DNA of 32,288 nucleotides, taken from the NCBI GenBank assembly GCA_017857825.1, contig JAFMCK010000006.1, positions 1-32,288 of the forward strand. Direction: 5' to 3'. The notes beneath the pieces are model-generated. The model was not told where the DNA came from, did not search any database, and worked only from the letters and a program-made list of their open reading frames with translations. This document shows, one piece after another, positions 2,363 through 17,573 of the stretch. Both the position numbers and the translations under genes were made by a program. This DNA is from Rhodospirillales bacterium. Its GTDB lineage: Bacteria; Pseudomonadota; Alphaproteobacteria; Rhodospirillales; Casp-alpha2. Within the stretch, counting starts at the first letter, position 1. The number at the start of each line of letters is the position of its first letter.

Positions 2363-2389
2363 TCCAGCTACCTTGTCGAATATTTTTGA

Positions 2390-3346
2390 ATGGTGATGAA
2401 GATGTTGAAAAAATTTATCGTTGTTTTGTGCGCGGCAATCGCAGGTTTCGGCGGCGTGGCTATGGATGCGTCGGCGGGGCAGCGGGTATTGGTCGTCGGC
2501 CTCGACGGTCACGGGCACGCGGTGCCGTCTTCATCTCCGCTTTTTGACAAAGTACAAGAAAACCTTGTCCGCCGTTTGGCTGAAACCGGCGTTACGCCGT
2601 TGTTGCCGGCGGATATGGGATTGGGTCGCGCGTCGTTGCAAACGCAAGCCGGGAGCGATGCAAATCTGTTGAGCGAGATCGCTTCCGGGGGCCAAGCTTC
2701 GCCCGATGCGGTCGTCACGTATTCTATGTTCGTGCGCACATACGGGCCGGTTTTGTCGCGGCAGATCGAAAGCAGCATGCAAGGCAATGTGCTTGATGTG
2801 GTGTCGGGGGACCGTTTGGGATCCTTCGATGTCAGCTTCCCGTTCGACCGTGTCGTGCCGAAGAACTGCGGCCGCGACTGCATGCTCGAAGAAGCCGCCT
2901 CGCAAGCCGACGAAATGGCGCGCGTGTTGGGCCGTGACATTATATCGCTGCTGAAGAACGGCGGCGCTGAGCTGTCCGATGCGAAACCGGTTGCCGAGCC
3001 GCCGGTCGCCGAGCCGAAACTTGCCGAGCGGCCGGTCCCCGAGCAGACGATTAAAGAGCCAGGGTCTTCATTGGCCGCCGTGCCCACAGGCCCTTGGGTG
3101 ACATTGACTTTCGATGGCTTCACGTCCGATGAACTGGCGCTGATTTATGAATTTGTGCCGGCCTTCGAAGGGCATGTCGATCTCGGCACGCCCCGGATTG
3201 AGGGCGCGGAGACCATTCTGACGCTGTATAGCGAAAGTGAACTTGCGGCGTTGGAGACGAACTTCGTGCGCCTGCTGGAACACCTTGATCTGCCGGGTGA
3301 GGTTGTCTCTCAGGCGGGTGGCATTCGCCTGGTGCGTGCCGAATAG
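2390..3346 (+). CDS. Secreted periplasmic protein, two domains joined by a Pro/Glu-rich linker, unknown function
   Basis: The 318-residue product has a signal peptide (MLKKFIVVLCAAIAGFGG, likely cleaved near ASA-GQ). A domain at about 30-195 follows, with a CysGlyArgAspCys motif (NCGRDCM) that may be disulphide bonded. Next is a linker of repeated VAEP/LAERP units at about 200-225, then an 80-residue C-terminal domain. The C-terminal pattern (VTLTFDGFTSDELALIYEF ... IRLVRAE) fits a small beta-alpha-beta-beta-alpha-beta fold and resembles the lipoprotein at 9220-9612. The start is uncertain: ATG 2390, ATG 2396 and ATG 2402 are all in frame, and 2402 gives the most typical signal peptide. The gap to the preceding gene is only 27 bases. 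Confidence 0.7.
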   Translation: MVMKMLKKFIVVLCAAIAGFGGVAMDASAGQRVLVVGLDGHGHAVPSSSPLFDKVQENLVRRLAETGVTPLLPADMGLGRASLQTQAGSDANLLSEIASGGQASPDAVVTYSMFVRTYGPVLSRQIESSMQGNVLDVVSGDRLGSFDVSFPFDRVVPKNCGRDCMLEEAASQADEMARVLGRDIISLLKNGGAELSDAKPVAEPPVAEPKLAERPVPEQTIKEPGSSLAAVPTGPWVTLTFDGFTSDELALIYEFVPAFEGHVDLGTPRIEGAETILTLYSESELAALETNFVRLLEHLDLPGEVVSQAGGIRLVRAE

Positions 3347-3454: not shown

Positions 3455-3913
3455 ATGTCCGAGATCAGCCAAAGCAGCACGCAGCCCGATAACGCGATGA
3501 CCGAGATCGCCTTGGCGTTGGCGATGGGCTTCTTTTCAATCATGGTTTTGACCATGGTTTCGATGGGCGCCGGTCAGGTCGCATCCGCTTCCAAAGACAT
3601 ATCCACCCCCACTCAAATCGAGGCCGAAAAAATCGAAATGGCCAACGTCGAGCCGGACACGGCAAAAACATCGACCGCGCCGACGGCACCCAGTGACGTG
3701 ATCGTTCATTATAACGGTGCATTTTTCGATGCGGAGCTCAATGCCATCGACCCATCGGCGTTCGCGCCCACCGGCAACGCGGTGCTCGCCCTGGATCCGT
3801 CGCTCAGCATGAGCGATGCGATGGCGGTGCGCGCGCGCGTCGGCGTGCCGAACCTGACCGTAACGACTTTAACCGAAAATTGGATCACCAGATTGAAAGA
3901 GGTAAAGCCATGA
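3455..3913 (+). CDS. ExbD/TolR-like single-pass membrane protein
   Basis: The 152-residue protein has one membrane helix at about 17-38 (EIALALAMGFFSIMVLTMVS), with an acidic residue, Glu17, at its cytoplasmic end. A flexible stretch follows to about 80, then a small periplasmic domain (DVIVHYNGAFFDAEL ... NAVLALDPSLSMSDAMAV ... VPNLTVTTL). Family knowledge: ExbD/TolR proteins have one helix with a critical acidic residue near its start, and a periplasmic domain with a similar strand-helix-strand ending. Here Asp would be replaced by Glu. The match is by pattern, not alignment. A good Shine-Dalgarno (GGAGAG) precedes the ATG, and the stop overlaps the transglycosylase start (ATGA). An ExbB/TolQ partner is not in the window and could lie upstream. 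Confidence 0.5.
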   Translation: MSEISQSSTQPDNAMTEIALALAMGFFSIMVLTMVSMGAGQVASASKDISTPTQIEAEKIEMANVEPDTAKTSTAPTAPSDVIVHYNGAFFDAELNAIDPSAFAPTGNAVLALDPSLSMSDAMAVRARVGVPNLTVTTLTENWITRLKEVKP

Positions 3914-4692
3914 CTGCGTTCATGCCCCGTATTGTCAGTGCAACGTTTGTATTCGCATTTGCGCTGCTCAGTCTCGACATTGCACCTGCGCAGGCGAGCA
4001 ACCGCAACGCGATCAAGGAAATGATCGTTTATGAAGCGCAGCAGATCGGCCTGAAGCCGTCGCTGGCGTTGGCCGTCGCCAAAGTGGAATCCGATTTTCA
4101 GGCGCGTGCGCTCAGCAGTGCCGGTGCGCGCGGCGTCATGCAGATCATGCCTGCGACCGCGTGGGGTGAATACCGCGTGCGGGCGAACCATCTTTGGGAT
4201 GCGCGCACCAACATCCGCATGGGCATAGACTTTCTGTCGAAGCTGATCGACCGCTATAACGGTCGCTGGGATCTGGCGTTATCGCATTATAACGGCGGCA
4301 CCATCAAAAACGGTCGACCGCACAGCTATACGCGGGGCTATGTCAGTAAGGTGCTGAAGTGGGAAAAGCGTTATGCGAACCAGCACGATGTTTGGACGGT
4401 AACCGCCGATGCGACGCCAACGCGCAAAGCGCCGCCGTCCTCCGACCTGGACGCGTTCAGCGAATACCTGGGCGGCGACTTCTATAAAAACTTCAAACGT
4501 GCGCGTGATCAGCAGATCGCTGCGGCCAAGCTGAAAGACGAGCTGCTGCGCCGTCAGGCTGGGATTAAGACCGGCATCCATGCGCGGCACAGAGCTTTTC
4601 AGCAATATGCGATGGCGCAGGCTCGGGTGGCAGTGCCGGTCACGCCTCGTCCGCTGCCGAAGCTTGGCCCCATCGTGCGGTGGAGCCGTTAA
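3910..4692 (+). CDS. Secreted SLT-family lytic transglycosylase
   Basis: This enzyme cleaves the MurNAc-GlcNAc bond of peptidoglycan in the periplasm. The 260-residue protein has a signal peptide (to about Ala29) and a compact SLT domain at about 35-150. The catalytic Glu60 sits in AKVESDF, followed by the hallmark GARGVMQIMPATA and the ALSHYNGG motif. A basic, helical C-terminal extension of about 95 residues is not part of the standard fold. I chose ATG 3910 rather than the track's 3880 because it overlaps the previous stop (ATGA), has a Shine-Dalgarno (AGAGG), and restores a clean signal peptide. Specialised transglycosylases beside envelope-machine genes usually open the cell wall for assembly, which fits this neighbourhood. 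Confidence 0.9.
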   Translation: MTAFMPRIVSATFVFAFALLSLDIAPAQASNRNAIKEMIVYEAQQIGLKPSLALAVAKVESDFQARALSSAGARGVMQIMPATAWGEYRVRANHLWDARTNIRMGIDFLSKLIDRYNGRWDLALSHYNGGTIKNGRPHSYTRGYVSKVLKWEKRYANQHDVWTVTADATPTRKAPPSSDLDAFSEYLGGDFYKNFKRARDQQIAAAKLKDELLRRQAGIKTGIHARHRAFQQYAMAQARVAVPVTPRPLPKLGPIVRWSR

Positions 4693-4728
4693 TGGCTCTG
4701 TCGCGACAATCTGTGCGCGAAAGGCGTG

Positions 4729-4773
4729 CATCTGCCGTGAGACCGTCGGGAAAACGGGTTTTCACGGCAGATG
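4729..4773 (+). terminator. Strong stem-loop after the transglycosylase gene
   Basis: A perfect 12-bp inverted repeat (CATCTGCCGTGA and TCACGGCAGATG) encloses 21 nt that can pair further (ACCGT with ACGGGT, one bulge). It lies 36 bases past the transglycosylase stop. No clear T-run follows, so it may be a Rho-assisted or processing hairpin. It also argues that this stretch is intergenic and not the beginning of the next gene. Confidence 0.5.
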
Positions 4774-4865
4774 TTGCCTGGGGTATTTTAGGTGGCTTAC
4801 GTCTTGTGCGTGTTTCCTCTAGAACTACAGTGCACAGATATTTGAATAGGGGGCGTCTTCAGCAG

Positions 4866-6461
4866 ATGAAAGATCCGATCCGCACACTTGCGCGAGGCGG
4901 CGCCGATGGTGAGGCGCTGGCGGACTTTCGCTGCCTGGCGGATGCGACGTCGGCAAGCGGCGGCCCGCGGTATCGGAATAAGGCGCATCTTTCGTGGTTG
5001 TCGGCGGTGATTGCGGGCGAACACATGTCGGCGCAAAACCGCGACGAGCCGCTTTATGCGGTGTGTCATCTCGTCTTGATGATCGATGCCGCCTGGCCGG
5101 GCGCAGAGGGAAGGTGGATGGCGTTGCTGGCCGCCGACCAACCGAGTCCCCAGCAATTCAAAGCATGGTTCGACGAGAACGTCGGGGCTGCCGGTTGGAA
5201 GAAGCCGGGCTTTGCGGTCACGCCGAAGGGAGTTTCCGGCACGGCCGGCGAAGCGCCCTGGCACATTTACTTCGGGCGCATGGTTTCCTTGGCGGCGTTG
5301 TTCGAATTTTTAATCGGCATGGAAGCGGGCGCCCACCACGCCGAGATCGAGAGCACCTTTGAGGCGCTTTGCGCGGGCGATTCTGGTGAGGCCGAAATCC
5401 GCGGCGCCAGCAATGCATTGGCAAAAATTCTCAGGTCCTATCGCCGCCGCCATTTTTCCCGCGCCGTGCATGAAGAGCGCTTCAATACGCTCTATCGGTT
5501 TTTAAGCGACAGAAGTCCGGACGGGCGTATTGTCATCGACGATCAGGCGATCTTAGCGTTTTGGCTCGAGAGCACCGGCGATGCATTCGTCAGTTATGCC
5601 GGCGCCGCCGAAGCGATGATCAAATTGTATCGCTTGTTCGCGGCCAGTGAAATCGGCGTGGCGATAGACGATGCCGCGCCGTTCGGTGCCGAGCGCGATG
5701 AATGGGATGCCAGCGAGGACGCACTCGGCGATATGCCGGGCGGCCCGTGGCGTTCGCCTTTCGAGGTGATCGATGCACCGCCCGCATCGGCGATCAAATT
5801 TTTCAAAAAAGAGGGAGAGCGCAAGCCGCTTGCAAACGTCGCGGCTTTTGGGCCCGAAGTCGAAGCGCTGCCGCTGACCGTTCTTCGGCTGGATTCCTTC
5901 GGTGCGGTGCAGTCCGCGATCAGCAACGACCTGCGGCTCTCGCGGGGCACGCTGGCCGCGCGGCTGTCTTGCGAAGGGGCGCATTCATATCAAACGCTTT
6001 ACGACACGCTGCACGGGTTGAAGCCGCATCTGGAGGCCCTGCAAAAAGCGACATTGTGGGCAATTTATTCGCATGGTCGTGTTGATGGGCATTCCGGTCG
6101 GGACGGTCGGACGGCGACCGCTGCCGGGGCCGATAACGTGATTGCGTTTCCGGGCAATGCGGCGCCGCAATTGGCCGTGCCGGACGAAGATGTTCCGTCT
6201 GAAAAGCATGCGCAGATCCTATTGGACGCCGAGCGTGCTTTTAAGGCGATGACCCGCAAAGGGTTCGATGCGGCGTCGTTGCGCGACGACGAACATGTTG
6301 CGGGGTTCTATGTCGGCGCCGGCGCGGTGCTGCAGATCGCCGATGTTCTGGAGCGCTACCTGCGGACTTTAACGCGTTACCAGCAACGTCTGGATGATAT
6401 GTTTGAACGTGATCGCGCCTTGTTCGCACAACGATTTGAGATTTTGTACGGTGAAAAATGA
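4866..6461 (+). CDS. Large soluble hypothetical protein
   Basis: The product has 531 residues from ATG 4866, with no signal peptide or membrane helix, so it is probably cytosolic. The track's start at 4680 would add 62 basic residues of low-quality sequence running through a strong hairpin and overlapping the previous gene, so I prefer ATG 4866 (MKDPIRTLARGG). The N-terminal half is mostly helical with many Trp and aromatic residues. The middle (about residues 265-330) is an acidic Gly/Pro-rich linker. The C-terminal half contains another linker before a final helical, Arg-rich segment. I recognise no family. The TGA overlaps the next ATG, so it is translationally coupled to the small protein downstream and probably partners it or the Lon-like protein. 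Confidence 0.75.
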   Translation: MKDPIRTLARGGADGEALADFRCLADATSASGGPRYRNKAHLSWLSAVIAGEHMSAQNRDEPLYAVCHLVLMIDAAWPGAEGRWMALLAADQPSPQQFKAWFDENVGAAGWKKPGFAVTPKGVSGTAGEAPWHIYFGRMVSLAALFEFLIGMEAGAHHAEIESTFEALCAGDSGEAEIRGASNALAKILRSYRRRHFSRAVHEERFNTLYRFLSDRSPDGRIVIDDQAILAFWLESTGDAFVSYAGAAEAMIKLYRLFAASEIGVAIDDAAPFGAERDEWDASEDALGDMPGGPWRSPFEVIDAPPASAIKFFKKEGERKPLANVAAFGPEVEALPLTVLRLDSFGAVQSAISNDLRLSRGTLAARLSCEGAHSYQTLYDTLHGLKPHLEALQKATLWAIYSHGRVDGHSGRDGRTATAAGADNVIAFPGNAAPQLAVPDEDVPSEKHAQILLDAERAFKAMTRKGFDAASLRDDEHVAGFYVGAGAVLQIADVLERYLRTLTRYQQRLDDMFERDRALFAQRFEILYGEK

Positions 6462-7000
6462 TGAGTGATTTTTTGAAACCCGACGACATGCAGTTGCAGG
6501 CGCTACGCGGGCAATTCGTTGACCAGGCGCTTGGCGAGGAGCTTTTTGACGATGCGCATGACGCGGCGGCGCCCCGAATTTCGCCGAGCGAGCTTTATGA
6601 CTATGCCTGCGCGCGGCGCTTGCCTGACGAACGGTTCGCCGTATCCCTGAAGGCGCATCCGCACTTGCGTAAGCTGTATCATCGGATGCTGGCCGCCAAC
6701 AGTAGCTTTGCCTTCGACGAGGCGCGCGCCGCGAGTGCGGGCGATATCGTTCGCAATGCACCGGGCTGTCGCATCCGCATGGAGAAAAGTCAGGCGGAAG
6801 ATGCACAGGTTTATGTCGTGATCGAATTTGAAGCGGACGATCCGGGTGTCTCCAGTTTGGTGATCGTGGATTCTGCCGAGCAGCCGTTCTCGTTCGATCT
6901 GCCGCCAACGCGGCGACGGATTTGCCAGCTTATCGCCGAAGAAGGGGATAAGCTTCTGCAGCTTTTGTATGACCCGAAATCCAGGCTTTATATGCGATGA
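6458..7000 (+). CDS. Small soluble protein with anti-sigma-like N-terminal helices, zinc ligands absent
   Basis: The 180-residue protein contains, at about 42-80, the pattern SPSELYDYACARRLPDERFAV followed by KAHPHLRKLYHRML. This resembles the 'eLadYalgrLp... HLaaCpeC' helices of zinc-binding anti-sigma and receptor-tail domains, but the CxxC ligands are missing. The C-terminal half is predicted beta-rich (VYVVIEFEADDPGVSSLVIVD) and ends with a helix. No signal or membrane segment is seen. The ATG overlaps the previous TGA, and its own TGA overlaps the next ATG. It may be a regulatory or adaptor subunit for the Lon-like protein. The anti-sigma resemblance is weak and inferred by eye. Confidence 0.65.
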   Translation: MMSDFLKPDDMQLQALRGQFVDQALGEELFDDAHDAAAPRISPSELYDYACARRLPDERFAVSLKAHPHLRKLYHRMLAANSSFAFDEARAASAGDIVRNAPGCRIRMEKSQAEDAQVYVVIEFEADDPGVSSLVIVDSAEQPFSFDLPPTRRRICQLIAEEGDKLLQLLYDPKSRLYMR

Positions 7001-8214
7001 AAATTGTTCGGATATTGATCGCAACGACGGGTGGTGTCGTCGCGATTGATCGAATAACCGCCGAGCGCGCGCCGCAATCCATGGTGTGCCTGAAGCGCAC
7101 CTCGCAGGTGCTGCCGATCAGCGGTGCCTACGACGATTTTGTCCGTCCGGGAAGCGGTGTCATTGCGCGCGAATTCGGTGGGCAAAGTTATCGATTGGAT
7201 CTCTCGGGCGTGGTCGGCTCGGGCGAGAGCTGGCAGCTTGCCGTGTTTCTCGCACATGCCGTTTCTGAATCCAACACGCACGAACTCGCAGGGCCAGACG
7301 TTGATGCCGCGCACACGTACTTGGTCACGGGGCGGGTAAATTACGATCTCGAGGTCGAACCGGTCGAGCATATCGACGAGAAAATAGCGGCGGCTGCGCA
7401 GATATTTTCAAGTGCCGGCGACGGTGTGAGCGTGATCGTGCCGCACGGCGATAATGCGGACCGCGCGATATCGCTGCTGCGCGAAGGCGGAACGCAGGTC
7501 TATCCATGTGCGCGGATCGCCGATGCGCTGGCCGTGATCGGTTTGCTGGCAGGCACGCCGCCGGCGAAAGTTTCTCAAGCAATGATGCCGGTCGTGCGGG
7601 GCGGGCATGGCCGAACGCCTTACGGGGCATTGTTGGCCGGGGCCGCCGTTATCGGCATTTTCTGGGGCGCGCTCTCGTGGCATCAGCGTGACAACGATAT
7701 GGCGGCAGACGCCGCGGTTCCCGAACCGAGCGCCGTGGCCAAGGCCGCACCGCCGCCACCGCAATCACTCGGGCGCGTCGAGGTGTTCGGCAAATATCCG
7801 CCGTCGGGACAGCGATGTGCCAGCCTTCTGTTTTCCAAAATGGAACCGGTGATGCGTCCGTATGATCCGGCAGGCGAGCGGCCGTGTGGTTTTCGGCTTC
7901 GTATCACGCCCGAGACGCCGGCGCGGTTTGCGGGTGTCGTCGTTGCGCGAAAGTCCGGGCGGCTTATTGAAGCGGCGTCGCGTGTCGAGGGCCTGAGCGG
8001 CGATCAGCCTGTGCGCGGCGCGCTGGACCTCGACTTGGATGTACCGCTGAGACAGCGCGAAGCGATTGATTTCAGCATCTATACGATCTTTGGAGAGCAG
8101 CCGGTTGCGGCAATTGTATCGCAGTTTCGGTCGTCGGACGCCGCGACAATAAATAACCGCGATGAAAGTGCGAATATTGTCGAGACACATATCACTTTAG
8201 CGACACCTCAATAG
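6997..8214 (+). CDS. Membrane-anchored protein with Lon (S16)-like peptidase domain and C-terminal periplasmic domain
   Basis: The 405-residue protein begins with about 185 residues resembling the Lon proteolytic fold (ribosomal S5 domain 2-like). GSGESWQLAVFLAHAV lines up with Lon's GPSAGxxxxxAL around the catalytic serine (here Ser78). VEHIDEKIAAA lines up with Lon's GGLKEKLLAA around the catalytic lysine (here Lys129), followed by VSVIVPHGDN and VYPCARIADAL as in Lon's viiP..N and pV..i.eaL. No AAA+ ATPase domain is present. A membrane helix (about 209-227), a short Pro/Ala linker and a beta-rich C-terminal domain of about 150 residues follow. The N-terminal domain would then be cytosolic. 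Peptidase activity is inferred from motif conservation only. It overlaps the upstream gene by 4 bases. Confidence 0.6.
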   Translation: MKIVRILIATTGGVVAIDRITAERAPQSMVCLKRTSQVLPISGAYDDFVRPGSGVIAREFGGQSYRLDLSGVVGSGESWQLAVFLAHAVSESNTHELAGPDVDAAHTYLVTGRVNYDLEVEPVEHIDEKIAAAAQIFSSAGDGVSVIVPHGDNADRAISLLREGGTQVYPCARIADALAVIGLLAGTPPAKVSQAMMPVVRGGHGRTPYGALLAGAAVIGIFWGALSWHQRDNDMAADAAVPEPSAVAKAAPPPPQSLGRVEVFGKYPPSGQRCASLLFSKMEPVMRPYDPAGERPCGFRLRITPETPARFAGVVVARKSGRLIEAASRVEGLSGDQPVRGALDLDLDVPLRQREAIDFSIYTIFGEQPVAAIVSQFRSSDAATINNRDESANIVETHITLATPQ

Positions 8215-8403: not shown

Positions 8404-9121
8404 GGGGCTGTCCCAGGTAATTAGCCCATATTCTGCTTAACCCATTGTCTCAATTAATATAATTGAATTGATGGGTCACTGTTATTAAAACGCCATTCAC
8501 ATTCCTTCAAAAATAGTCCAAAATTGACCTTTGGAACACCGTTGAATTTGCGCATCTGGCGCTTTGCCTGGTTCCAAAAAGTCTCAATACCATTGATGTG
8601 ATTTTGCTTGTCTGCGAAGAGTTCAGAATGGTTGATCCGAAAATGATGAAAATCTGAAATATCCAACACATTGTACGCTCGCCAGCTGTCTGAATAGACG
8701 ATGCTATCAGGAATGACCTTACGATTGATAATAGGGATTAAAGTTTCTGATGAGGCGTCAGGGATGATCTTCGTATAGACCTTGCCTCCGCGCTTTAACA
8801 AGCCAAATACAGGGATTTTTCCCGCAGCACCACGTCCACGCCTGCCCTTCCTCTTGCCACCGAAGTAACTTTCATCCACCTCAATCTCACCGCCAAACAT
8901 GGCCTCACTTTCAGCCTCTAGTTCCAGGGCGATGATCTCGCGCAAACGGAGAAAGTAAAAAGCCGCCGTCTTGCGATTAACACCACATAGGCTCGCCGCA
9001 GTTCGAGCCGTCGTGCCAGCAACGAAATGCTCAATCAAACGATTTTGTTTATACCTACTCAGCCTACTCTTGCGCATAGATCCCATGATAACCCAAATCC
9101 TTGGTTATCTGGGACAGCCCC
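8404..9121 (-). mobile_element. Complete IS1595-family insertion sequence (718 bp)
   Basis: The element is bounded by 13-bp perfect terminal inverted repeats (GGGGCTGTCCCAG at 8404-8416, complement at 9109-9121; pairing resumes at TAA after one mismatch). It is flanked by identical 8-bp duplications TTAGCTGG. It carries one intact transposase on the minus strand. GGGGCTG ends and 8-bp duplications are typical of IS1595 elements. The perfect duplication and intact ORF indicate recent insertion. It landed between the Lon-like gene and the downstream lipoprotein operon, where a promoter for that operon would be expected. Confidence 0.95.
8454..9086 (-). CDS. IS1595-family transposase (ISXO2-like DDE domain)
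   Basis: The 210-residue enzyme cuts and joins the ends of the surrounding insertion sequence. A helix-turn-helix-like N-terminus (TTARTAASLCGVNRKTA) is followed by the DDE catalytic core: Asp71 in EVDESYFGG, Asp133 in VYSDSWRAY, and Glu168 in HINGIETFWNQAK. A basic stretch (GGKRKGRRGRG) follows the first Asp, a hallmark of this family. Length matches complete members of the short subgroup and I see no frameshift or internal stop, so it is probably active. Codon usage is visibly more AT-rich than the neighbours, as expected for a mobile gene. Confidence 0.95.
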   Translation of the reverse strand: MGSMRKSRLSRYKQNRLIEHFVAGTTARTAASLCGVNRKTAAFYFLRLREIIALELEAESEAMFGGEIEVDESYFGGKRKGRRGRGAAGKIPVFGLLKRGGKVYTKIIPDASSETLIPIINRKVIPDSIVYSDSWRAYNVLDISDFHHFRINHSELFADKQNHINGIETFWNQAKRQMRKFNGVPKVNFGLFLKECEWRFNNSDPSIQLY

Positions 9122-9219: not shown

Positions 9220-9612
9220 TTGAGAGCCCTGATCACGATTTCTATGAAGTCTCCGCTAATTATTTGTGTCGTGCTGGGCTTGGCCGGTTGTGCCGCGCAG
9301 GCGAACACCGGCGGGAACACTGCCGCACCTATCACGTCGCCGGCGTATGGGCCGCAATCAAAAGTATCGGTGTTTATTCGCGGCCTTGATGACACGGCCG
9401 CGTCGTCGCTCGTTCAAGAATTGATTCAGGATCAATCCTGCCGACCGCTCCGCGTCGTCGAACGCTCTTTCGGCTATTTGGAGGTGGCGTGTAATTCGGT
9501 GGACGGCGCCGGGCGCGTCGCGAATGCGTTCCAGTCCGTTGCCAAGCAGATGGGGATCGACCTCTCTGCTTCTCACTCGGGCGATCAAGTATTGATGAGG
9601 AAGATAGACTGA
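9220..9612 (+). CDS. Small lipoprotein with ferredoxin-like-fold domain, unknown function
   Basis: A hydrophobic leader ends in a lipobox (GLAGC), so the mature protein of about 107 residues is lipidated. The track's longer ORF (from 8971) runs backwards into the IS and is not real. TTG 9220 has a good Shine-Dalgarno (AGGGGGAG) and gives 130 residues. ATG 9244 is the alternative, with a weaker site but a normal 15-residue leader. The mature domain (KVSVFIRGLDDTAASSLVQEL ... QVLMRKID) has a strand-helix-strand-strand-helix-strand pattern similar to the C-terminus of the secreted protein at 2390-3346. Two Cys (SCRPL, VACNS) may pair. Its TGA overlaps the next ATG (TGATG). It is the first gene after the insertion sequence. 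Confidence 0.75.
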   Translation: MRALITISMKSPLIICVVLGLAGCAAQANTGGNTAAPITSPAYGPQSKVSVFIRGLDDTAASSLVQELIQDQSCRPLRVVERSFGYLEVACNSVDGAGRVANAFQSVAKQMGIDLSASHSGDQVLMRKID

Positions 9613-10781
9613 TGCGTGTGATTTTCGCCAAGCTGGGATTTTCGCTGGCAATGTTGATCGTGGCAGCTGCGCCTGTAAGCGCGGCCCCGATCGAGAAGGC
9701 ATATTTCGCCGGTTTTGCGTTCATTTCCGACAATGTGGACGTCGGCGTCCGTTTTCCCTTTTCATATCAGATTTCTGAGAGCACGCCTGACAACGAACAA
9801 GATGTCCTTCAGGCGGAATTGATGAAGCGCTTGCGTGCGAATATGCCGGAAGGTTTTGAACTCGACTTCAACCAGTCTAATGACCCGGGTGCCATAACAC
9901 TCGCGTTCGCTCTTGATTGGGAAAACGTCTCGATCGTTCAGTATGGTGATGACTACAAAGTTTCGATCGATCTACACGCTCAAATATTAGCCTTCGACTT
10001 TGCTGAGAAAAAAATTATCGCTGCGCATCCGATTAGTATTCAGTTACGTGACGGTTCGAAAGAAAAGCCGACGGAGGAATATTTGGAGCGACGCGTTCGT
10101 GAGATGTACCTGACGAACATTCATGGCATAAATATTTTCGACGAGTTTGTTGCAAGGCTCAAAAATCTTGTCATCAAAGAGAAATACAGGAATTACATTC
10201 AGTTGGTGAACGTCGACCTAACGGATCGGGCGGCGAAAAAAGTGACCGAAATTTCACCCCTACGCGAAAGCGCGTTCAAGGGCTTTGTTGGTCAGCATTT
10301 CACGAAATTCCTTTCGGTAAACCAAGATGTCGCCGTGCTCCCTTTCTCCAAGGGGCAGGCGATTGGTGGTGCTATGGCCGCGAGATTTGCCGATGGATCC
10401 GTTTTTAGTTTTCAGTTGCCAGAGCCCGACTACCAGATGGAAATCGAATACACGGGTTTTGCAAGTAAGCAACTTGGTAAAAACGAAGTCAAAGAGAAGT
10501 GGCTGTATGTAACTGGCTATAGTCTCGAAGTGTCAGAGCCTCTGTCAGGCCGGAAGTATCTAAGTGGCTCGTTTCGTAACAGTACTATTGTGACAAAGAT
10601 CGCGAACGATACGAAGGGTGATCCCTGGTCATATTACCAGCAGGTGTTTTTTGAGTTATCGAACGGCTTAACAAAACAGATTTCCGAACGTTCGTCAGAC
10701 TGGTTTTCCAAACGGACGAAGACCGAGAATATTTTGGAACAACTAAAAGCTTTTGAAGGGATATTGGAGCGGTGCAGATGA
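9612..10781 (+). CDS. Secreted periplasmic hypothetical protein
   Basis: The 389-residue product has a clear signal peptide (MRVIFAKLGFSLAMLIVAAAPVSA, cleavage after SAA or ASA). The mature part is a mixed alpha/beta protein with charged, long helices and no membrane segment. A mid-region pattern (FTKFLSVNQDVAVLPFSKGQAIGGAMAARFADG) recalls the 'vAVLPF... a...' start of TolB-N/CsgG-like domains, but only loosely. Codon use is slightly more AT-rich than in the preceding gene run. The start overlaps the previous stop by one base and its 3' end overlaps the next gene by 4 bases (ATGA), so it is coupled within the CsgG/FlgT-type operon. Function is unknown. Confidence 0.7.
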   Translation: MRVIFAKLGFSLAMLIVAAAPVSAAPIEKAYFAGFAFISDNVDVGVRFPFSYQISESTPDNEQDVLQAELMKRLRANMPEGFELDFNQSNDPGAITLAFALDWENVSIVQYGDDYKVSIDLHAQILAFDFAEKKIIAAHPISIQLRDGSKEKPTEEYLERRVREMYLTNIHGINIFDEFVARLKNLVIKEKYRNYIQLVNVDLTDRAAKKVTEISPLRESAFKGFVGQHFTKFLSVNQDVAVLPFSKGQAIGGAMAARFADGSVFSFQLPEPDYQMEIEYTGFASKQLGKNEVKEKWLYVTGYSLEVSEPLSGRKYLSGSFRNSTIVTKIANDTKGDPWSYYQQVFFELSNGLTKQISERSSDWFSKRTKTENILEQLKAFEGILERCR

Positions 10782-11872
10782 TACGAATTTTGACGATAAG
10801 CCTGTGTTTGATGATTTTGGCGGTTTCCGGCGTTTCCGCGCAGGAAGTGAAAGTTAAGGGCAAAGCCACCACGAAATACGAAGGCGGCTTGTTTTCGAGC
10901 AGCCCAAGCGCCGAAATGAAGGCAAAAACCATCGAAGCCGCGAAGGCTGCGGCATGGAAGCGCTATACGGCCTCATTCAACGCCGCAAAGAAGCGCTCCT
11001 ACGAGGCAATGGAGCCCCAGTTCCTGGGTTCGTTGGACGATTACATCGTGGATTACAGCATAATCGATGAGATGTCCGACGAGTCTAGCAGCTCCTACAA
11101 CGTCGTTATTCGTATGAGTGTTGACGGTGGGGCGGTGGATTCCATGCTCAATTCGAATTCCGCTGCCGGTGCGCAGATGGGCGAAGGGAGTTACTTTGCG
11201 TTCGTCTTCGTTGCGCGTGAGGCCGCGGCTCGCACGTCGTTCAAGGCGAAAGAAACCAACATCAGCATGGCGGAAGCACAAGCGAAGTCGAAAGAGTCGA
11301 TCGCCAGCAGTGGCGGGACCACGGTCTCTGGCGCATCGGGCAAGTCGATGGCTAAAACCGTCACCGGGGGTAGCACGGTTCGTAAAGCCGATAAGGTTCA
11401 GTACCGCGCCTCGAGCTCGTCCGATATCAACGCCAAGATAAGCGAACAACTGACGGTCGCCGGCTTTGAGGTTGTCGATTATGGGGACGTCGTGAGCGAA
11501 TGCGGCGGCGCCGAACCGGCCGTTATCGCCGATGAGTTTTCGGTCGCCGACTCGGTGACGCGTCAAACCCGCAAACTGGCGATCGATGGTGCGCGCGATT
11601 GCGAGGTAAATTTCTTCGCGCTCGGGACCATGGACGTTGGCGTGAATGACATCGACCCGGTGAGCGGGCTGCAGCGTGTTTACGTTTCTGTGCGGGGTGA
11701 AGTTTGGAACATCGCCAAACGCCTGCCGAAAAAGGTCGCATCCGTCGGGCCGGTCCAATTTTCCGGATTGGGTCCCGACGCCGATGTGGCGCGTCGAAAT
11801 GCTCTTTCCCTCGCGGGGGAGCAGGCTGGATCGATTATCGTCGATCAAATGAACATGAAGAATCTACGTTAA
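10778..11872 (+). CDS. Secreted LPP20/FlgT-N-like periplasmic protein
   Basis: The 364-residue product has a signal peptide ending SVSA-QEV. The next segment (SAEMKAKTIEAAKAAAWKRYTASF ... YNVVIRMSVDGGAV) fits the LPP20/FlgT N-terminal theme: a helix of repeated 'A..eA...A' after a first strand, then an exposed strand pair. A Ser/Gly/Ala-rich insert (about 160-200) precedes a second domain with a probable TolB-N-like pattern (ISEQLTVAGFEVVDYGD). ATG 10778 is preferred to the track's GTG 10772 because GGAG then sits at normal distance and the start overlaps the upstream TGA (ATGA). Family knowledge links such proteins to outer-membrane rings or pores. The exact role is unknown. Confidence 0.65.
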   Translation: MIRILTISLCLMILAVSGVSAQEVKVKGKATTKYEGGLFSSSPSAEMKAKTIEAAKAAAWKRYTASFNAAKKRSYEAMEPQFLGSLDDYIVDYSIIDEMSDESSSSYNVVIRMSVDGGAVDSMLNSNSAAGAQMGEGSYFAFVFVAREAAARTSFKAKETNISMAEAQAKSKESIASSGGTTVSGASGKSMAKTVTGGSTVRKADKVQYRASSSSDINAKISEQLTVAGFEVVDYGDVVSECGGAEPAVIADEFSVADSVTRQTRKLAIDGARDCEVNFFALGTMDVGVNDIDPVSGLQRVYVSVRGEVWNIAKRLPKKVASVGPVQFSGLGPDADVARRNALSLAGEQAGSIIVDQMNMKNLR

Positions 11873-11916
11873 GCACTAACCATTAATCACGAATCATGAT
11901 GAGGAGATCTAAAAGA

Positions 11917-12588
11917 ATGAGAAGACTTAGGAAAATAGTGTCGACGGCTTTCGTGGCGGTGTTTTTGTCGGCAACGGCCGGCTGCGTCACGGTCCCGGGT
12001 ATGAAATCCGGCGGCGCCGTGGATGTCGATGGTCTGGTCGGCCAGGGGAACGGCATCGTTGAGCGTTATCAGTCCGCGTTGACGAACCTTTTGCAAGCGC
12101 AGGAGCTTCTGTCTGTTGCCCTCGGCATCAAAAACGCCGGTGATCGCTCTGCTGAGACGGCCAAGCTTTTGGCCGGTGGAATTGTCGATGACGAAACTCT
12201 CGAAAAGGCGACCGCAGTTACCGAAGAAAACAACAAGCTGATCGCCGCCAAAATTGCTGAGGGCAGCAACTTGGATGCTGAAAGTAAACAGAAGTATGGC
12301 GAGGCCGTCCCTTATTACTCTAAGGGCACGCTCGATGGTGCACTTTTGGTGAAAGATGCCGCTGACTATGTCACCAGCATTTCCTCGTCGAGCAGTCAGC
12401 TCGTGTCGGATCCGGCAATGTTGGGCAAGCTGAAAGAAGGTGCAGCGGCCGGTGTCTTCGTCGGCACGAAACTGCCGGGGCTGATCAACGAATGGTACGA
12501 CAACACGAAAACCCTGATCACGTTCGGTCAGGAAAACGACATCGACGTCAGCAAAGCGACTGACGTCATGGAGCAGATCGAATTGTAA
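11917..12588 (+). CDS. Lipoprotein, first of a tandem paralogous pair (WYDNTxTLITFGQEN family)
   Basis: The 223-residue product has a strongly basic n-region, a hydrophobic core and a lipobox (ATAGC, Cys23). The mature protein is largely helical, Ala/Leu/Glu-rich, and ends WYDNTKTLITFGQENDIDVS...MEQIEL. The whole mature part aligns without gaps over long stretches to the C-terminal two thirds of the next gene (shared LLAGGI, ATAxTxEN, GTL and WYDNT blocks), so the two arose by duplication. ATG 11917 is chosen over the track's 11896 because GAGGAG (11901-11906) lies 10 bases upstream and within the longer version. I know no function. Genes of this operon suggest an accessory outer-membrane lipoprotein of a CsgG/FlgT-like assembly. 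Confidence 0.75.
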   Translation: MRRLRKIVSTAFVAVFLSATAGCVTVPGMKSGGAVDVDGLVGQGNGIVERYQSALTNLLQAQELLSVALGIKNAGDRSAETAKLLAGGIVDDETLEKATAVTEENNKLIAAKIAEGSNLDAESKQKYGEAVPYYSKGTLDGALLVKDAADYVTSISSSSSQLVSDPAMLGKLKEGAAAGVFVGTKLPGLINEWYDNTKTLITFGQENDIDVSKATDVMEQIEL

Positions 12589-12595
12589 TAACGCG

Positions 12596-12636
12596 TGCCG
12601 GCAGCGTCATTGGGCGCTGTCGGCATCTCTTTTTTG
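12596..12636 (+). terminator. Intrinsic terminator or attenuator between paralogous lipoprotein genes
   Basis: TGCCGGCAGCG pairs with CGCTGTCGGCA (11 bp, one G-U) around an 8-nt loop and is followed by TCTCTTTTTTG, the classic hairpin plus T-run. Since the operon continues in the same direction after only 59 bases, it may be a partial terminator that lowers expression of the downstream genes. Confidence 0.8.
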
Positions 12637-12695
12637 CGCGCTTTTATAATTTTATTTATTTTTTTGGAAAATTCACGATGAGGGGAACCGGGGCT

Positions 12696-13583
12696 ATGAA
12701 GAAAGAAACAGCAGTGAATAAAAAGACCAACACCACTCTTGGAAGGTTGGGGCGAGGGGCAGCACTGTCCGCTCTTGTTGTGTCTTTGAGCGCCTGCCAA
12801 ACGATGGAGAATTTGGACAAGCAACTCACCAGTGTGGGCAACTCCATGCAAAGTGGCATGAAGGGGGTCATTTCGAGTGACGAAACCTCAAGCACATCGG
12901 CGCGCAAAACGTCGGTGAATGACTCATTGAACAGTTCTCAAACGCAAGAGACGGCCTCGATCTCGGGCGCTGCGCGCGCATCGGAACCTCCGAAGGAAGG
13001 CGCCGGTGAAATTACGGCCGATGTAGACACCAATAACCGGATCGTCCGGCGCTATCAGGCGGCATTGGTGTTGATGCTGCAGGCACAAACGATTTTGCAG
13101 GAAGCGCTCAAGATCGATGTTGATCGGCAAAAAGTAGAGGCTACAGCAGAGTTACTGGCGGGTGGTATCGCGGATAAAAGCGAGTTGGAGAGCGCGACGG
13201 CCCTGACCGCGGAAAACGATGCGCTGATCCGTGAAAAGCTCGATGCCGGCGTAAAGCTCGATGAACAAGGCCGTGAAAAGTATGCCGAGGCTTTGCCGGT
13301 CTATGCCTTGGGCACGCTGAACTCATCGTTGATCGTGCCCGAGGTGCTGGCATATGCAAACGAGGTGCAATCGACGATCAGCCAGATCAGCAGCAATCCG
13401 CTGATGGCATTCCGTGCCGTGTCTTTGGCGCAGGGTGCGGTGTCCGGTTTGTACGTTGCGTCCGAGCTGCCGACGTTGGTCAGCAAATGGTATGACAACA
13501 CCTCGACATTGATCACGTTCGGCCAAGAAAACGAGGTTGACGTGTCGGACGCCGAAGACGCGATGGAACAAGTTGAACTGTAA
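12696..13583 (+). CDS. Lipoprotein, second of a tandem paralogous pair, with extra N-terminal linker
   Basis: The 295-residue product has a long basic n-region, a hydrophobic core and a lipobox (SLSAC, Cys34). A Ser/Thr-rich, low-complexity linker of about 70 residues follows, probably spanning periplasm or surface space. The final 185 residues are homologous to the gene just upstream, ending WYDNTSTLITFGQENEVDVS...MEQVEL. ATG 12696 has AGGGGA 9 bases upstream. The track's ATG 12678 is an alternative with a weaker site. It is preceded by a terminator-like hairpin, so it may be expressed at a different level from its paralogue or have its own promoter in the AT-rich stretch at 12637-12677. Function is unknown. 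Confidence 0.75.
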   Translation: MKKETAVNKKTNTTLGRLGRGAALSALVVSLSACQTMENLDKQLTSVGNSMQSGMKGVISSDETSSTSARKTSVNDSLNSSQTQETASISGAARASEPPKEGAGEITADVDTNNRIVRRYQAALVLMLQAQTILQEALKIDVDRQKVEATAELLAGGIADKSELESATALTAENDALIREKLDAGVKLDEQGREKYAEALPVYALGTLNSSLIVPEVLAYANEVQSTISQISSNPLMAFRAVSLAQGAVSGLYVASELPTLVSKWYDNTSTLITFGQENEVDVSDAEDAMEQVEL

Positions 13584-13591
13584 ATCGGTCT

Positions 13592-13613
13592 CCTCTGTGC
13601 CATGGCGCAGAGG
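13592..13613 (+). terminator. Short stem-loop downstream of second paralogue
   Basis: CCTCTGTGC pairs with GCGCAGAGG (9 bp, one G-U) around a CATG tetraloop, 8 bases after the stop. There is no T-run, so it is more likely an mRNA-processing or stability hairpin than a full terminator. Confidence 0.4.
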
Positions 13614-13646
13614 CATCTTACTGAACGTGGGCGTTGGAGATTGAAA

Positions 13647-14924
13647 ATGCGGTTGTTCGTTGGCGTAGTTGCTTATGTGTTGTGCGGTTTTTTATGGACC
13701 GCACCGGCGCAGGCCCAAATCGAATATGTCACTGTCAGCTCGCAAGGGAGCGGGCCAACGCTTAGTGATGCCATTTACGACGGGATCAGAATGGCGATTG
13801 AGCAGGTGAACGGCGCGCAGGTTGCCGCACAGACCTCACTTGCGACATCGCAGGTAAGCACGTCGAGTGAGAGCGGCGATTCCTATGCGGCATCCGAAGC
13901 TTTCGCACAGGCGGTGACGTCGCAGACAAAGGGCACGGTCAGGGAATATCGGATCGTCAGCAGCGGTGTCGACCCCGCGCTCGGCAATCTGACAACCGTG
14001 GACCTTGAAGTCGTGGTGGCAAAGTTCAAACGCTCGGCACAGTTAAACCGCAAGCGTCTTGCCGTCATGCCGTTCCGTATCGATCCCAGCATCTCGGCTA
14101 GAAACGGCGATATCATCGGCGAGGCATTCGGCCAGAGCCTGATTACGTTCCTCACACAGACCCGTAAATTTGCGTTGCTGGATCGCGATTATCTGGCCGA
14201 ACAGCAAGCCGAACTCGGCATCGTGACATCCGGCCAAACGCCGATTGAGGAATTGGCCAAACTCGGTCAGATGGTCAGCGCCGATATGGTGCTTGTCGGA
14301 ACCATCACAAAAGCTGCAACGCGTAAAAATACCATTTCATCGTCGATTACCGGTGTTTCGCGCACCACCTATATCGGCAATATAGGTGTATCGTATCGCG
14401 TCATCGACGCCGCGACAGGTCAGATCAAGTGGGCTGACACCTATGCGTCCAGTACCGAATCCGGCGCCGCCGGTGGTGTGCTGACCAAATTATCGCAGCG
14501 CGCTGCCGGTGAAATTGGCGAGAAAGTTCTGAACGCGATCTATCCGGTCACGGTCGCCGCTGCATCGGGTAACGAGTTGGTGCTTGGTCAGGGCGGTCGC
14601 ACGATCGAGGTTGGACAGCGTTTTAAGCTGATCATGCTTGGGCAAACCATCCAAGATAAGCATACCGGCGAATCGCTGGGCGCCGAAGAAATCATCGTTG
14701 GCGAAATTGAAATCGTTTCGGTAACCCCGAAGCAATCACGCGCGCGCGTGGTCAAGGCCGACAGCGATCCCTTTGCATTGATCGCAACCAACGAATTCAT
14801 TGTGCGGCCGATGGATAAAGTGAAGGCACGTGCGCAAGCAAAGGCTAAACAAGCCAAACAGGTCGAAAAAGAAATCGATGCTGGTTTCGAATCCTTCGAA
14901 AAAGAAAATTCTGAGCAGTGGTAA
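13647..14924 (+). CDS. CsgG/FlgT-like secreted protein (LPP20-like N-domain, CsgG-like middle, SH3-like C-domain)
   Basis: The 425-residue product has a signal peptide (APAQA-Q). The N-terminal domain (about 25-130: VTVSSQGSGPTLSDAIYDGIRMAIEQVNG...) matches the FlgT/LPP20 N-terminal pattern. The middle (about 135-290: LNRKRLAVMPFRI ... FALLDRDYLAEQQAELGI ... LGQMVSADMVLVGTIT) carries the recognisable CsgG/TolB-N signature. A C-terminal beta domain (ELVLGQGGRTIEVGQRFKLI...) resembles FlgT_C, followed by a Lys/Ala/Gln-rich tail. Family knowledge: FlgT builds the flagellar H ring of Vibrio, and CsgG forms the curli secretion pore. Here the protein lacks a lipobox. ATG 13647 is preferred to the track's 13602 because TGGAGA sits 6 bases upstream and a clean signal peptide results. 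Confidence 0.8.
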   Translation: MRLFVGVVAYVLCGFLWTAPAQAQIEYVTVSSQGSGPTLSDAIYDGIRMAIEQVNGAQVAAQTSLATSQVSTSSESGDSYAASEAFAQAVTSQTKGTVREYRIVSSGVDPALGNLTTVDLEVVVAKFKRSAQLNRKRLAVMPFRIDPSISARNGDIIGEAFGQSLITFLTQTRKFALLDRDYLAEQQAELGIVTSGQTPIEELAKLGQMVSADMVLVGTITKAATRKNTISSSITGVSRTTYIGNIGVSYRVIDAATGQIKWADTYASSTESGAAGGVLTKLSQRAAGEIGEKVLNAIYPVTVAAASGNELVLGQGGRTIEVGQRFKLIMLGQTIQDKHTGESLGAEEIIVGEIEIVSVTPKQSRARVVKADSDPFALIATNEFIVRPMDKVKARAQAKAKQAKQVEKEIDAGFESFEKENSEQW

Positions 14925-14933
14925 GGTGATGAC

Positions 14934-16358
14934 ATGAACATTTACAAAAACCTTTTGAAGACATCTTCGGCGCTTTTTGTTGGCGTGACGATGGTCGGTA
15001 TATCGTCTTTTGCGCATGCGGATTTGCTTGCCGATGCGGCGAAGGATGAGACTATTCGTCAAGAGGCCGGCAATATAGAAGTCATTGAGTCTTTGGAAAT
15101 GGCTGGTTCCGCTTGTGAAGATTGGGCGAGCAGCAAAGGGTGGACGCTTGGTAACAACCAAAAAAGCGATGGTACGCCTTTCTTCATCTCGACGGGGACA
15201 GGCACGATCAGCGCACCGCTGGGGCATCAGAACTATATCAATGATCGCCAGAACGCGTATGAAAAAGCAGTGCTGAACGCAAAGGCAGAGTTGGTCAAAT
15301 ATATGAACAACTCCATTCAACAGGATCTGACGCTTGCGACGTCCCAAGGCACCTTCTCTGCAGAGCCGATCCGGACCTCGCAAAACACGCCGGCAAAGCC
15401 CGACGAGCCCGCCGAACACGGCTGGGAAACTGCCTATAATAAAACGTTGCGCCTGCTACACGCGGAACTCGACAAACAGTTGGGCGATCGCGGAGTCGAC
15501 CTAAATCCAGAGCCTACAGAAGAAGAAAAACGCGCAGCCGAAGAGGCAGCGCGGGAAATTTTTGCTACTGAAGAATTTCGTCAACTGATCACGGCTACGG
15601 CAAAATCGCAGCTGAAGGGCGTCCGTCGGATGTTCGTTCAGGAAGAAGTTTCGCCGAACGAAAAGCAGGGATCGATCTGTGTCGTGATACTTGGCTCGCC
15701 GAAAACGATGGCGATGGCAGATGCGATTATGACGGGGAACCCTAATATCGCTCCCACGGGTTATTTCGGAAAGCCGATCAGCGAGCAGATTCCGGACAAG
15801 AAAACCCCAGAGGGCCTCAAGGAACTGATGACGTCTTATGGTGTTCAAATGGTTCGCGACGAAGTCGGGGAATTCCATTTAATTACCTACGCTCAAGCCG
15901 GTTCTCCATCGACCAACAAAATGCTGATGGCCAATGCCAAGAAAATAGCGACGTCCCGTGCGCAGGGGACTTTGGCAAGTTTTGCAAAGGAGCATACAGC
16001 TGTTACGTCACGCACCGAAAATGCTTCGTCGGCTAAGACATACGCCGACTCGATGGAGGAAATCGACTACGAGGGCGGAGCTGCGCTCGAAGAAGTCATT
16101 AAGTCGACCACACCTATGGTTGACATTCAGGGTGCACGCGTCCGTTCAAGCTGGGCTGCAAAGCACCCGGTCACCAAACAAATTGTTGTCGGTGTGATCT
16201 ATCAGTGGTCGCCGGGGTCTGCCGTTGCCGCAAGGCAATTGCAGAACAATATCAATCAGACGGCGCGACCGGCGGGCGGTGCTCCGGCGAGCGCCGTCAA
16301 CACGGGGCAAGGCTTCCAGGGGTCTGCCTCGCGCGGCTCCAGCGAGTCGGATTTTTGA
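14934..16358 (+). CDS. Secreted protein associated with the CsgG/FlgT-like gene, unknown function
   Basis: The 474-residue product has a signal peptide (VTMVGISSFAHA-D). The N-terminal domain contains an LPP20-like helix (NDRQNAYEKAVLNAKAELVKYM). An acidic Pro/Glu-rich linker and helix follow at about 180-205, then two more mixed alpha/beta blocks (CVVILGSPKTMAMADAI; VRSSWAAKHPVTKQIVVGVIYQWSP). A Gly/Ser-rich disordered tail ends in SDF. The IVVGVIYQWSP strand pair near the end looks like the final strands of an LPP20-type domain. It starts 9 bases after the CsgG-like gene with AAGGTGA as Shine-Dalgarno, so the two are almost certainly co-expressed. I cannot assign a biochemical role. Confidence 0.7.
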   Translation: MNIYKNLLKTSSALFVGVTMVGISSFAHADLLADAAKDETIRQEAGNIEVIESLEMAGSACEDWASSKGWTLGNNQKSDGTPFFISTGTGTISAPLGHQNYINDRQNAYEKAVLNAKAELVKYMNNSIQQDLTLATSQGTFSAEPIRTSQNTPAKPDEPAEHGWETAYNKTLRLLHAELDKQLGDRGVDLNPEPTEEEKRAAEEAAREIFATEEFRQLITATAKSQLKGVRRMFVQEEVSPNEKQGSICVVILGSPKTMAMADAIMTGNPNIAPTGYFGKPISEQIPDKKTPEGLKELMTSYGVQMVRDEVGEFHLITYAQAGSPSTNKMLMANAKKIATSRAQGTLASFAKEHTAVTSRTENASSAKTYADSMEEIDYEGGAALEEVIKSTTPMVDIQGARVRSSWAAKHPVTKQIVVGVIYQWSPGSAVAARQLQNNINQTARPAGGAPASAVNTGQGFQGSASRGSSESDF

Positions 16359-16391
16359 TTGATCGGTCACGTCGTTAAGAGCGTTCGGCCT

Positions 16392-17573
16392 ATGCGTCTC
16401 ATTTGCTGTATGGCACTGTTGTTGCTTTTTGTGCCATCGGCAAATGCAGGCGAGGCTGACGTTCGCGAACTCTCGGATGCCTATGAGGTCTCGGTAACGG
16501 TCCGTCAGACGGCGCACGGCGCGAGCAGAACCAGACGCCTTGCGCTTGATCTTGCGCAAGACAAGTTGATGACTTGGCTGCAAACCAAAAACTTGGCGTG
16601 GCCGGATGACATTCGCCAAGAAGACCGCTCGTTTTTCTTGGATTTATATCGTCGCGGCGTCGCCACCCGCGGCGCGTTTGGGCAGTCCGATTTATTGCGG
16701 TCCGAACAAGACGGTGCGGCATCGCGCTTCACGTTTCGCATATCGAAAAACGGTATCCGCATTCCGCAACCGCAATGGCCCGAGGTTTTTTCTGGCGTCG
16801 TCAACTTGACCCGGCAGCCCGGCAAAGTATCGGTGCTGACACACCTCGAACTTGCCGAGCGATATCCGAGAGAAATTCCTCACCAGCCCGTCGTTCAGCG
16901 CATCAAATCTGAAATCGGCGTTCGGTTTCTCCAGTTTATAACCGGCGCGGATGTGGCGTACGCCGGCAATGCGGGTGCGCTCGAAAGCATTCCGGGCAAC
17001 ACGTTGCAACTCGCAAAGGCCTTGGCCGACCAGCCCTACAACACCGATCTTTCCTTCCTTTTGATCGGAAAGCTGCGGGGTACGGCATTGCGCGCTGTGC
17101 TGTGTCGGATCACGAACCAAGCACAGCGCGGGAGTAAATTATCACCTGCATATCCTCCAATTCGGGATTTCGGCGTGGACGCTTGCGGTTCGTCGGCATC
17201 GATATTTGAAAACGGCGTCAGTGACGGTCAAATTGAAGATATGCGCGAAGACATCGAAGATGCGAAATTACCGATGCGCGGGTTCGCATATGATGTCGCT
17301 GCGAGTTTCGGCGAACTGCCGGTGATTTTGCAGGCGCGTACTGCCACCGATCCTGAGAAAGCATGCAGACCGCTCGGCCTGGAAGTCTGTTTTCAGGCAT
17401 TTAACACTCGTCCATCTGTCGCCTTGGCAAGTCAGTTGGCAGAGATGTCGGCCGAGGCTGGCTATGGTTTCCTTGCGACGGCTTTTACTTGGCAGGTTTG
17501 GCTATGGAATGGCCGGCGCGACGAGATGCCTAAAGCATTTAGTTGGTCATACCCGGACCCGAATGCCGGGTGA
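16392..17573 (+). CDS. Secreted hypothetical protein, last gene of the CsgG/FlgT-like operon
   Basis: The 393-residue product has a signal peptide (MRLICCMALLLLFVPSANA-GE). The mature N-terminus (YEVSVTVRQTAHGASRTRRLALDLAQDKLMTWL) has the 'strand, then A..xA..LA' layout of LPP20-like domains. The rest is mixed alpha/beta with several Cys (AVLCRIT, VDACGSS, KACRPLGLEVC) that may form disulphides in the periplasm. The track starts at TTG 16359, directly after the previous stop, but ATG 16392 gives a standard signal peptide. The operon appears to end here: no gene follows for nearly 400 bases. No family recognised. Confidence 0.65.
   Translation: MRLICCMALLLLFVPSANAGEADVRELSDAYEVSVTVRQTAHGASRTRRLALDLAQDKLMTWLQTKNLAWPDDIRQEDRSFFLDLYRRGVATRGAFGQSDLLRSEQDGAASRFTFRISKNGIRIPQPQWPEVFSGVVNLTRQPGKVSVLTHLELAERYPREIPHQPVVQRIKSEIGVRFLQFITGADVAYAGNAGALESIPGNTLQLAKALADQPYNTDLSFLLIGKLRGTALRAVLCRITNQAQRGSKLSPAYPPIRDFGVDACGSSASIFENGVSDGQIEDMREDIEDAKLPMRGFAYDVAASFGELPVILQARTATDPEKACRPLGLEVCFQAFNTRPSVALASQLAEMSAEAGYGFLATAFTWQVWLWNGRRDEMPKAFSWSYPDPNAG

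Follow-up and report, generated by a model that had tools for sequence, protein, structure and literature searches.

A free-standing operon with two FlgT-like proteins adjoins a putative motor module in a Rhodospirillales genome

Introduction

Rings of the FlgT type are usually regarded as accessories of the flagellum. What, then, does an operon build that encodes FlgT-like proteins outside a flagellar locus? The question is raised by a 32,288-nucleotide stretch of DNA from a Rhodospirillales bacterium (assembly GCA_017857825.1, contig JAFMCK010000006.1, positions 1 to 32,288 of the forward strand; hereafter the window), in which eight genes, here named A to H, are packed on one strand at about 9220-17573. 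An original prediction, made from the sequence by itself, had read this operon as a separate outer-membrane ring or secretion device related to CsgG and FlgT. As detailed below, structure models indicate that two of its products, C and F, are FlgT-like; the operon core is kept across several phyla, and in the window it adjoins a second gene set with features of an ion-driven motor. The operon probably builds a separate, previously undescribed machine.

Results

Predicted FlgT-like folds of F and C

The eight open reading frames (ORFs; Table 1) lie as originally described, save that the likelier start of A is 9244 (MKSPLIICVVLGLAGC...), which gives a lipoprotein, and not the earlier start at 9220. 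They follow one another with intergenic gaps of −10 to +89 nt. Inspection of the N-termini by eye identifies a signal peptide or lipobox in all eight products, with lipoboxes in A, D and E, in agreement with the earlier view that every product is secreted or lipidated.

Pfam recognises only F and G, with no significant match for A, B, C, D, E or H. In F, a CsgG domain scores well above threshold (2.4e-10; 40.5 bits versus a cut-off of 20.8), LPP20 is not significant (E 0.29; 12 bits versus 25.9) and LpoB falls below its cut-off (19 versus 22.3 bits); among 20 F proteins, CsgG is present in 18, the LpoB profile matches 16, FlgT_M seven and FlgT_C one. The CsgG assignment expected from profile searches was thus recovered, and the LPP20- and TolB-N-type patterns claimed for several products survive as weak or partial matches among relatives but not at the sequence level in the window.

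An AlphaFold2 model of F, built with 20 relatives in the alignment (mean predicted local distance difference test score, pLDDT, 72), matches FlgT over its full length in Foldseek (3w1e, E 2.6e-18; LPHT-ring FlgT 8z5n, E 1.5e-18; about 410 columns), which supports the three-part architecture proposed for 13647-14924; further matches are to CsgG (2e-7), GNA1162, CT253, TolB and PelC. A sequence profile relates the C-terminal domain of F to TsaP (6ve2, 9e-7). When C is modelled (mean pLDDT 78), FlgT is again the top match (8z5n 1.6e-6, 3w1e 1.5e-5), followed by CT253 and PelC. Comparison of C with F by hhalign yielded a weak match of 40 residues only, and the C-FlgT link therefore rests on the structure model; the same method linked neither B to C or F, nor G to F. 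Sequence profiles of B and C found no matches in PDB and Pfam, and no similar solved structure was found for D. The models argue for an FlgT fold with high confidence in F and good confidence in C, such that F would combine LPP20/FlgT_N-like, CsgG/TolB-N-like and FlgT_C/TsaP-like domains, and C the first two kinds. Because they contain several charged residues, the long strands at F residues 214-254 look soluble rather than like a CsgG-type membrane hairpin.

The lipid anchor shifts between relatives: Stenotrophomonas, Pandoraea, Cupriavidus basilensis and Chlorobiaceae have F as a lipoprotein, while the window F lacks a lipobox and D and E are the lipoproteins. A second CsgG-domain protein with a stronger match (3.8e-27) is encoded elsewhere in this genome (G000 contig C309:19108-19665, locus L001).

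Conservation of the operon outside flagellar and curli loci

Relatives of B, C, D/E and F, which together with G are referred to as the R-module, were collected by tblastn on plasmids and a genome scan with C, followed by iterated profiles. The latter place B in 63, C in 65, D/E in 61 and F in 61 loci, nearly always in the order B-C-D-F and in some cases with G added. Since this order is kept in about 60 loci, B-C-D-F is, with very high confidence, a conserved operon far beyond chance. Its hosts include Caballeronia, Cupriavidus metallidurans, Burkholderia, Stenotrophomonas, Pandoraea, Dyella, Lysobacter, Chlorobiaceae, Desulfobacteraceae, Geobacter, Opitutales and alphaproteobacterial metagenome-assembled genomes (MAGs). 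The broad alignment of C is too divergent for a pattern search, and A has no relatives among the loci searched with iterated profiles. At the C-terminal ends of B, a penultimate Cys is kept (CR/CK/CM), with the exception of Chlorobiaceae.

Pfam and profile scans of the window identified no csg or flagellar gene, as originally noted, and no FlgO/FlgP match. At the related loci, no further gene family recurs beside B-C-D-F across lineages, no recurring secreted substrate was found and no flagellar family recurs nearby; cousins of an LpoB-containing type, described below, are an exception. FliG is present in this genome (G000, C82), and FliG_M is absent from five R-module genomes (G798-G800, G802 and G803: three Chlorobiaceae, an alphaproteobacterial MAG and an Opitutales MAG), some of which are drafts that can miss genes. 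Chlorobiaceae are generally held to be without flagella. CsgF is absent from 14 of 15 R-module genomes tested. With no gene recurring beside it, some hosts without FliG and nearly all tested hosts without CsgF, the R-module is supported as neither curli nor flagellar. Strains of Stenotrophomonas maltophilia carry the B-C-D-F operon; in S. maltophilia R551-3, a BLASTP survey found no FlgT candidate (PMC6375700).

A second module with a putative ion-driven pair

The original prediction overlooked the FlgT-like nature of C, the upstream half of the locus with its putative motor, and the insertion between the halves; associated genes reach the very start of the window. Relatives of the genes at 40-8211 are found in the neighbourhood of the operon in three other genomes (G251, G152 and G311), and belong to an M-module with the conserved order u3, u4, u5, u6, u7, u8, p205, p293, p137, motA-like, w0, u1, u2, common to about 15 alphaproteobacterial and six non-alphaproteobacterial genomes. 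Among the M-module families scanned, only u5 has a significant Pfam match (SLT).

Two families suggest a possible motor. Members of the motA-like family probably have four helices; ZorA (ZorA2) models match 11 of the 17, the best at 3.7e-5, with alignments that cover the last two helices. The single helix of u4 begins with a Glu that all 15 homologues share. MotB/ExbD-type subunits have a membrane acidic residue of this kind. A PADLOC scan of u4, u6, u7 and u8 returned no ZorB and no ZorC/D/E. The pair is considered, with moderate confidence, a candidate motor. A by-eye reading of the u8 N-terminal domain as a degenerate Lon-type Ser-Lys domain was set aside for want of profile support. Some M-loci (L142, L144) appear by eye to encode a CsgG/TolB-N-like protein of their own behind u2, an observation that counts against a link with the R-module.

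Linkage of the two modules

R- and M-modules adjoin in the window as well as in G251, G152 and G311, with varying gene orders and strands; in the non-alphaproteobacterial genome G666, B (7.6e-55), C (3e-7) and D (3.8e-30) lie 5' of M-genes, without F. The M-module occurs in three of four sampled class genomes with a strong F, versus 22 of 386 overall (hypergeometric p 6e-4, without phylogeny correction). We regard the link between the modules with good confidence.

An IS1595-type insertion sequence sits exactly between the modules, flanked by an 8-bp target duplication (TTAGCTGG, read directly at 8396-8403 and 9122-9129). Given its inverted ends and target repeat the insertion is recent, so that u8 and A were formerly direct neighbours; it may uncouple transcription of the two modules.

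F was not found in 36 other genomes of the same family, and the locus was therefore probably acquired by this genome. Contig C240 of the same assembly contains p205 and p293 and breaks off within p137, and the start of the window falls inside w0; the gap corresponds to the expected position of the motA-like gene. Left of p205, C240 (L115, 70-6847) contains two genes resembling tyrosine recombinases, together with a paired histidine kinase and response regulator; such a pair flanks the G152 locus too. At 17958-18554, a truncated VIT1-family gene (96 amino acids) is followed by an apparent DctM C-terminal fragment, a scar that marks the right edge of the cluster. The recombinase-like genes at the far end of C240 and these gene scraps fit an acquisition of the locus, and the recombinase-like genes and kinase/regulator pairs suggest mobility and regulation.

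Protein G and a second operon type

G matches the structure of Francisella FTT_1539c (PDB 4qvr) at 1.2e-17 alone (residues 84-438) and at 1.2e-43 with a family profile, and it scores near the cut-off for DUF6844 (PF20891; 27.8 bits versus 27, but 25.5 in a single-protein scan). A first genome scan with G alone returned no relatives. A second type of operon, present in Gammaproteobacteria-like genomes and Azospirillum, encodes a lipoprotein, YcfL, LpoB, G and F; LpoB-DUF6844-F operons of this kind lie beside genes reading as flagellin at two loci (L112, L113) and as flgB/flgC at one (L112), which makes a flagellar branch of the F superfamily possible. Near the Azospirillum G-F operon lies a gene for a giant Ig-like protein (L016 17041-29053).

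The Francisella comparison is an alignment of the solved structure only. FTT_1539c has been described as an immunoreactive antigen (PMC4207810), and the adjacent FTT_1540c carries the annotation LpoB (PMC8149597). Insertion in FTT_1538c, within the four-gene operon FTT_1537c-1540c, was reported to attenuate; the confidence limits overlapped, and the insertion may have acted through polar effects (PMC4696196). FTL_0645 was rejected as a counterpart of FTT_1539c, being another protein, Flpp3. A literature search found no paper on DUF6844 and none on the present operon. Judged by position, H may be orthologous to a 418-amino-acid gene that follows G in G251.

Aromatic C-terminal tails

The last residue of F is Trp in 22 and Tyr in three of 31 less redundant homologues, mostly preceded by acidic residues (DDNW, SEDEW, SEQW), and that of G is Phe in 13 of 14 (EDDF, ESDF), against a background of about 3.6% W and 4.6% F at the ends of neighbouring ORFs, non-coding ORFs included. 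In the AlphaFold2 model, the F tail sits beyond a low-confidence linker. Our guess is that both tails dock to a partner. Within the G666 locus (L165 14212-17617, 13204-14118), a trypsin-like, a subtilisin-like and a u3-like protein end in VKW, IQW and GGW, respectively; these could possibly share a C-terminal Trp tag or be cargo.

Table 1. Features of the two modules and the intervening insertion in the window
Feature	Coordinates	Strand	Description
w0	40..429	+	C-terminal part of inner-membrane/proline-rich protein, cut by contig end; matches L022:11721-12242 (BLASTP 0.001)
u1	429..1598	+	TonB/TolA-like proline-rich protein, N-terminal membrane helix; homologues in G152, G311, G251 and most M-module loci; no significant Pfam match
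u2	1601..2359	+	Lipoprotein, VTGC lipobox; homologues in G152, G311 and many M-loci
u3	2390..3343	+	Secreted protein; homologue in G311; repeated family in L165
u4	3455..3910	+	Single membrane helix with invariant Glu (TEIALALAMGFF); candidate MotB/ExbD/ZorB-type subunit
u5	3880..4689	+	Lytic transglycosylase (SLT), PF01464 9e-22
u6	4680..6458	+	Cytoplasmic protein; conserved position in M-module
u7	6458..6997	+	Cytoplasmic protein; M-module family
u8	6997..8211	+	Protein with central membrane helix; M-module family
IS1595-type insertion	8404..9121	-	Transposase 8454-9086, PF12762 1.2e-29; inverted ends
A	9244..9609	+	Small lipoprotein, LAGC lipobox
B	9612..10778	+	Secreted protein, conserved penultimate Cys
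C	10772..11869	+	Second FlgT-like secreted protein (AlphaFold2 model)
D	11896..12585	+	Lipoprotein, TAGC lipobox
E	12678..13580	+	Lipoprotein, paralogue of D (43% identity)
F	13647..14921	+	FlgT-like three-domain protein (model), CsgG-type middle domain; no lipobox; tail SEQW at 14910-14921
G	14934..16355	+	DUF6844/FTT_1539c family; tail ESDF at 16344-16355
H	16392..17570	+	Secreted protein (signal peptide read from sequence)

Discussion

The reading we favour, to which we would give an even chance, is that the two modules form a trans-envelope, ion-driven machine with an FlgT-type outer-membrane part. We infer ring formation, ion-driven motion and a force path as follows. The R-module would supply the exported and lipid-anchored proteins, of which C and F would most likely assemble into a ring or scaffold on the periplasmic side of the outer membrane. 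From the M-module (w0 and u1-u8, plus p205, p293, p137 and the MotA/ZorA-like gene of relatives) would come an inner-membrane ion-driven pair, in which the four-helix MotA/ZorA-like protein is joined by u4 and its membrane Glu; the lytic transglycosylase u5 may open the cell wall, and the TonB/TolA-like u1 may span the periplasm to the ring. A wider form of this proposal is put forward more tentatively, at somewhat less than an even chance: that the machine is widespread, consisting of a MotA/ZorA-like and Glu-helix motor, a TonB-like arm, a wall-cutting enzyme and a non-flagellar FlgT-type ring, with parts and perhaps cargos tagged by DDxW/DDF ends. Of the device first proposed, the ring-type character and the independence from curli and flagella are supported, in view of the FlgT/CsgG-type folds, the conserved free-standing operon and the hosts without FliG; a pore or secretion role is not, as the strands of F look soluble and no substrate gene recurs.

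Several observations weigh against a two-module machine. Template modelling scores (TM-scores) of the F model to FlgT are low (0.27-0.33), probably reflecting differing domain angles. Pfam MotA_ExbB does not match the four-helix family, a PDB profile search with its 17 members came back empty, and u4 lacks profile (hidden Markov model) support for MotB/ExbD/ZorB homology. A search of this genome's assembly did not find the motA-like gene. Most R-modules (in Beta- and Gammaproteobacteria and Chlorobiaceae) have no adjoining M-module, most M-modules have no R-module, and the guanine-plus-cytosine (GC) content of the window halves differs (about 60% versus 50-55%).

It is possible, if unlikely, that the R-module is a free-standing outer-membrane or periplasmic scaffold, for instance one stabilising another surface structure, and that its adjacency to the M-module is incidental or a local partnership, with no motor involved. 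The operon does stand alone in Stenotrophomonas, Burkholderia, Cupriavidus, Pandoraea and Chlorobiaceae, and the GC content of the window halves differs, but the modules adjoin independently in five lineages, one of them non-alphaproteobacterial, and in varied arrangements.

We consider it improbable that F, and perhaps C, forms a CsgG-like export pore for secreting or displaying adhesins or proteases, with the acidic-aromatic tails of F, G and some neighbours as docking signals. The frequency of the CsgG domain among F proteins (18 of 20), the giant Ig-like protein beside the Azospirillum F and the two secreted proteases ending in Trp within the G666 locus would all suit an exporter; however, no secreted partner recurs at the operon, the fold of F is nearer to FlgT than to CsgG, and in the window F is not lipidated and its long strands carry charged residues.

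Still less probable is a regulator of cell-wall synthesis, in which F would belong among LpoB-type activators and the locus would tune peptidoglycan synthases: against the LpoB profile matches in 16 of 20 F proteins (sub-threshold in the window), the existence of LpoB-DUF6844-F operons, the naming of FTT_1540c as LpoB (PMC8149597) and the SLT enzyme of the M-module, B-C-D-F comes without a separate LpoB gene, no synthase recurs beside it, and the Chlorobiaceae and betaproteobacterial loci do not contain the cell-wall enzyme. Least credible of all is an H-ring variant for the host's own flagellum, which would account for the FlgT fold, FliG on C82 and the flagellar-looking genes beside related operons (L112, L113), but not for an operon in genomes without FliG, with no flagellar family recurring near B-C-D-F, nor for the lack of an FlgT candidate in R551-3 (PMC6375700), a strain of a species with operon-bearing members.

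That the FlgT fold occurs twice in a free-standing operon, and in several phyla, suggests an older envelope device from which the flagellar H-ring was taken over or with which it has a common origin. Should the linked M-module prove to be a true motor, it would add a new class of ion-driven envelope machine, comprising about 20 gene families, of which the majority have no counterpart in Pfam.

Comparison with known systems places the locus beside several without equating it to any. Like the Vibrio H-ring protein FlgT, which acts with FlgO/FlgP, F is predicted to be an exported three-domain protein with a CsgG/TolB-N-type middle domain; unlike it, F lies outside a flagellar locus, in hosts that include some without FliG, accompanied by a second FlgT-like protein, C, and without an FlgO/FlgP match in the window. 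With the curli pore F shares a CsgG domain above the Pfam cut-off, but there is no CsgE/F/A alongside, and the window F is not lipidated and has extra N- and C-terminal domains. G belongs to the FTT_1539c family of the Francisella FTT_1537c-1540c operon, and F follows G in related operons, although that type has LpoB and lacks B-C-D. The C-terminal domain of F resembles TsaP, the secretin-associated protein of type IV pili, but F lacks a LysM domain and the window contains no pilus genes. Finally, the M-module recalls MotAB, ExbBD, TolQR and ZorAB in its pairing of a four-helix with a one-helix protein, its membrane acid and its weak ZorA profile matches; it differs from them in having no Pfam match, a u4 without a recognised peptidoglycan-binding domain, no ZorC/D/E and another set of partners.

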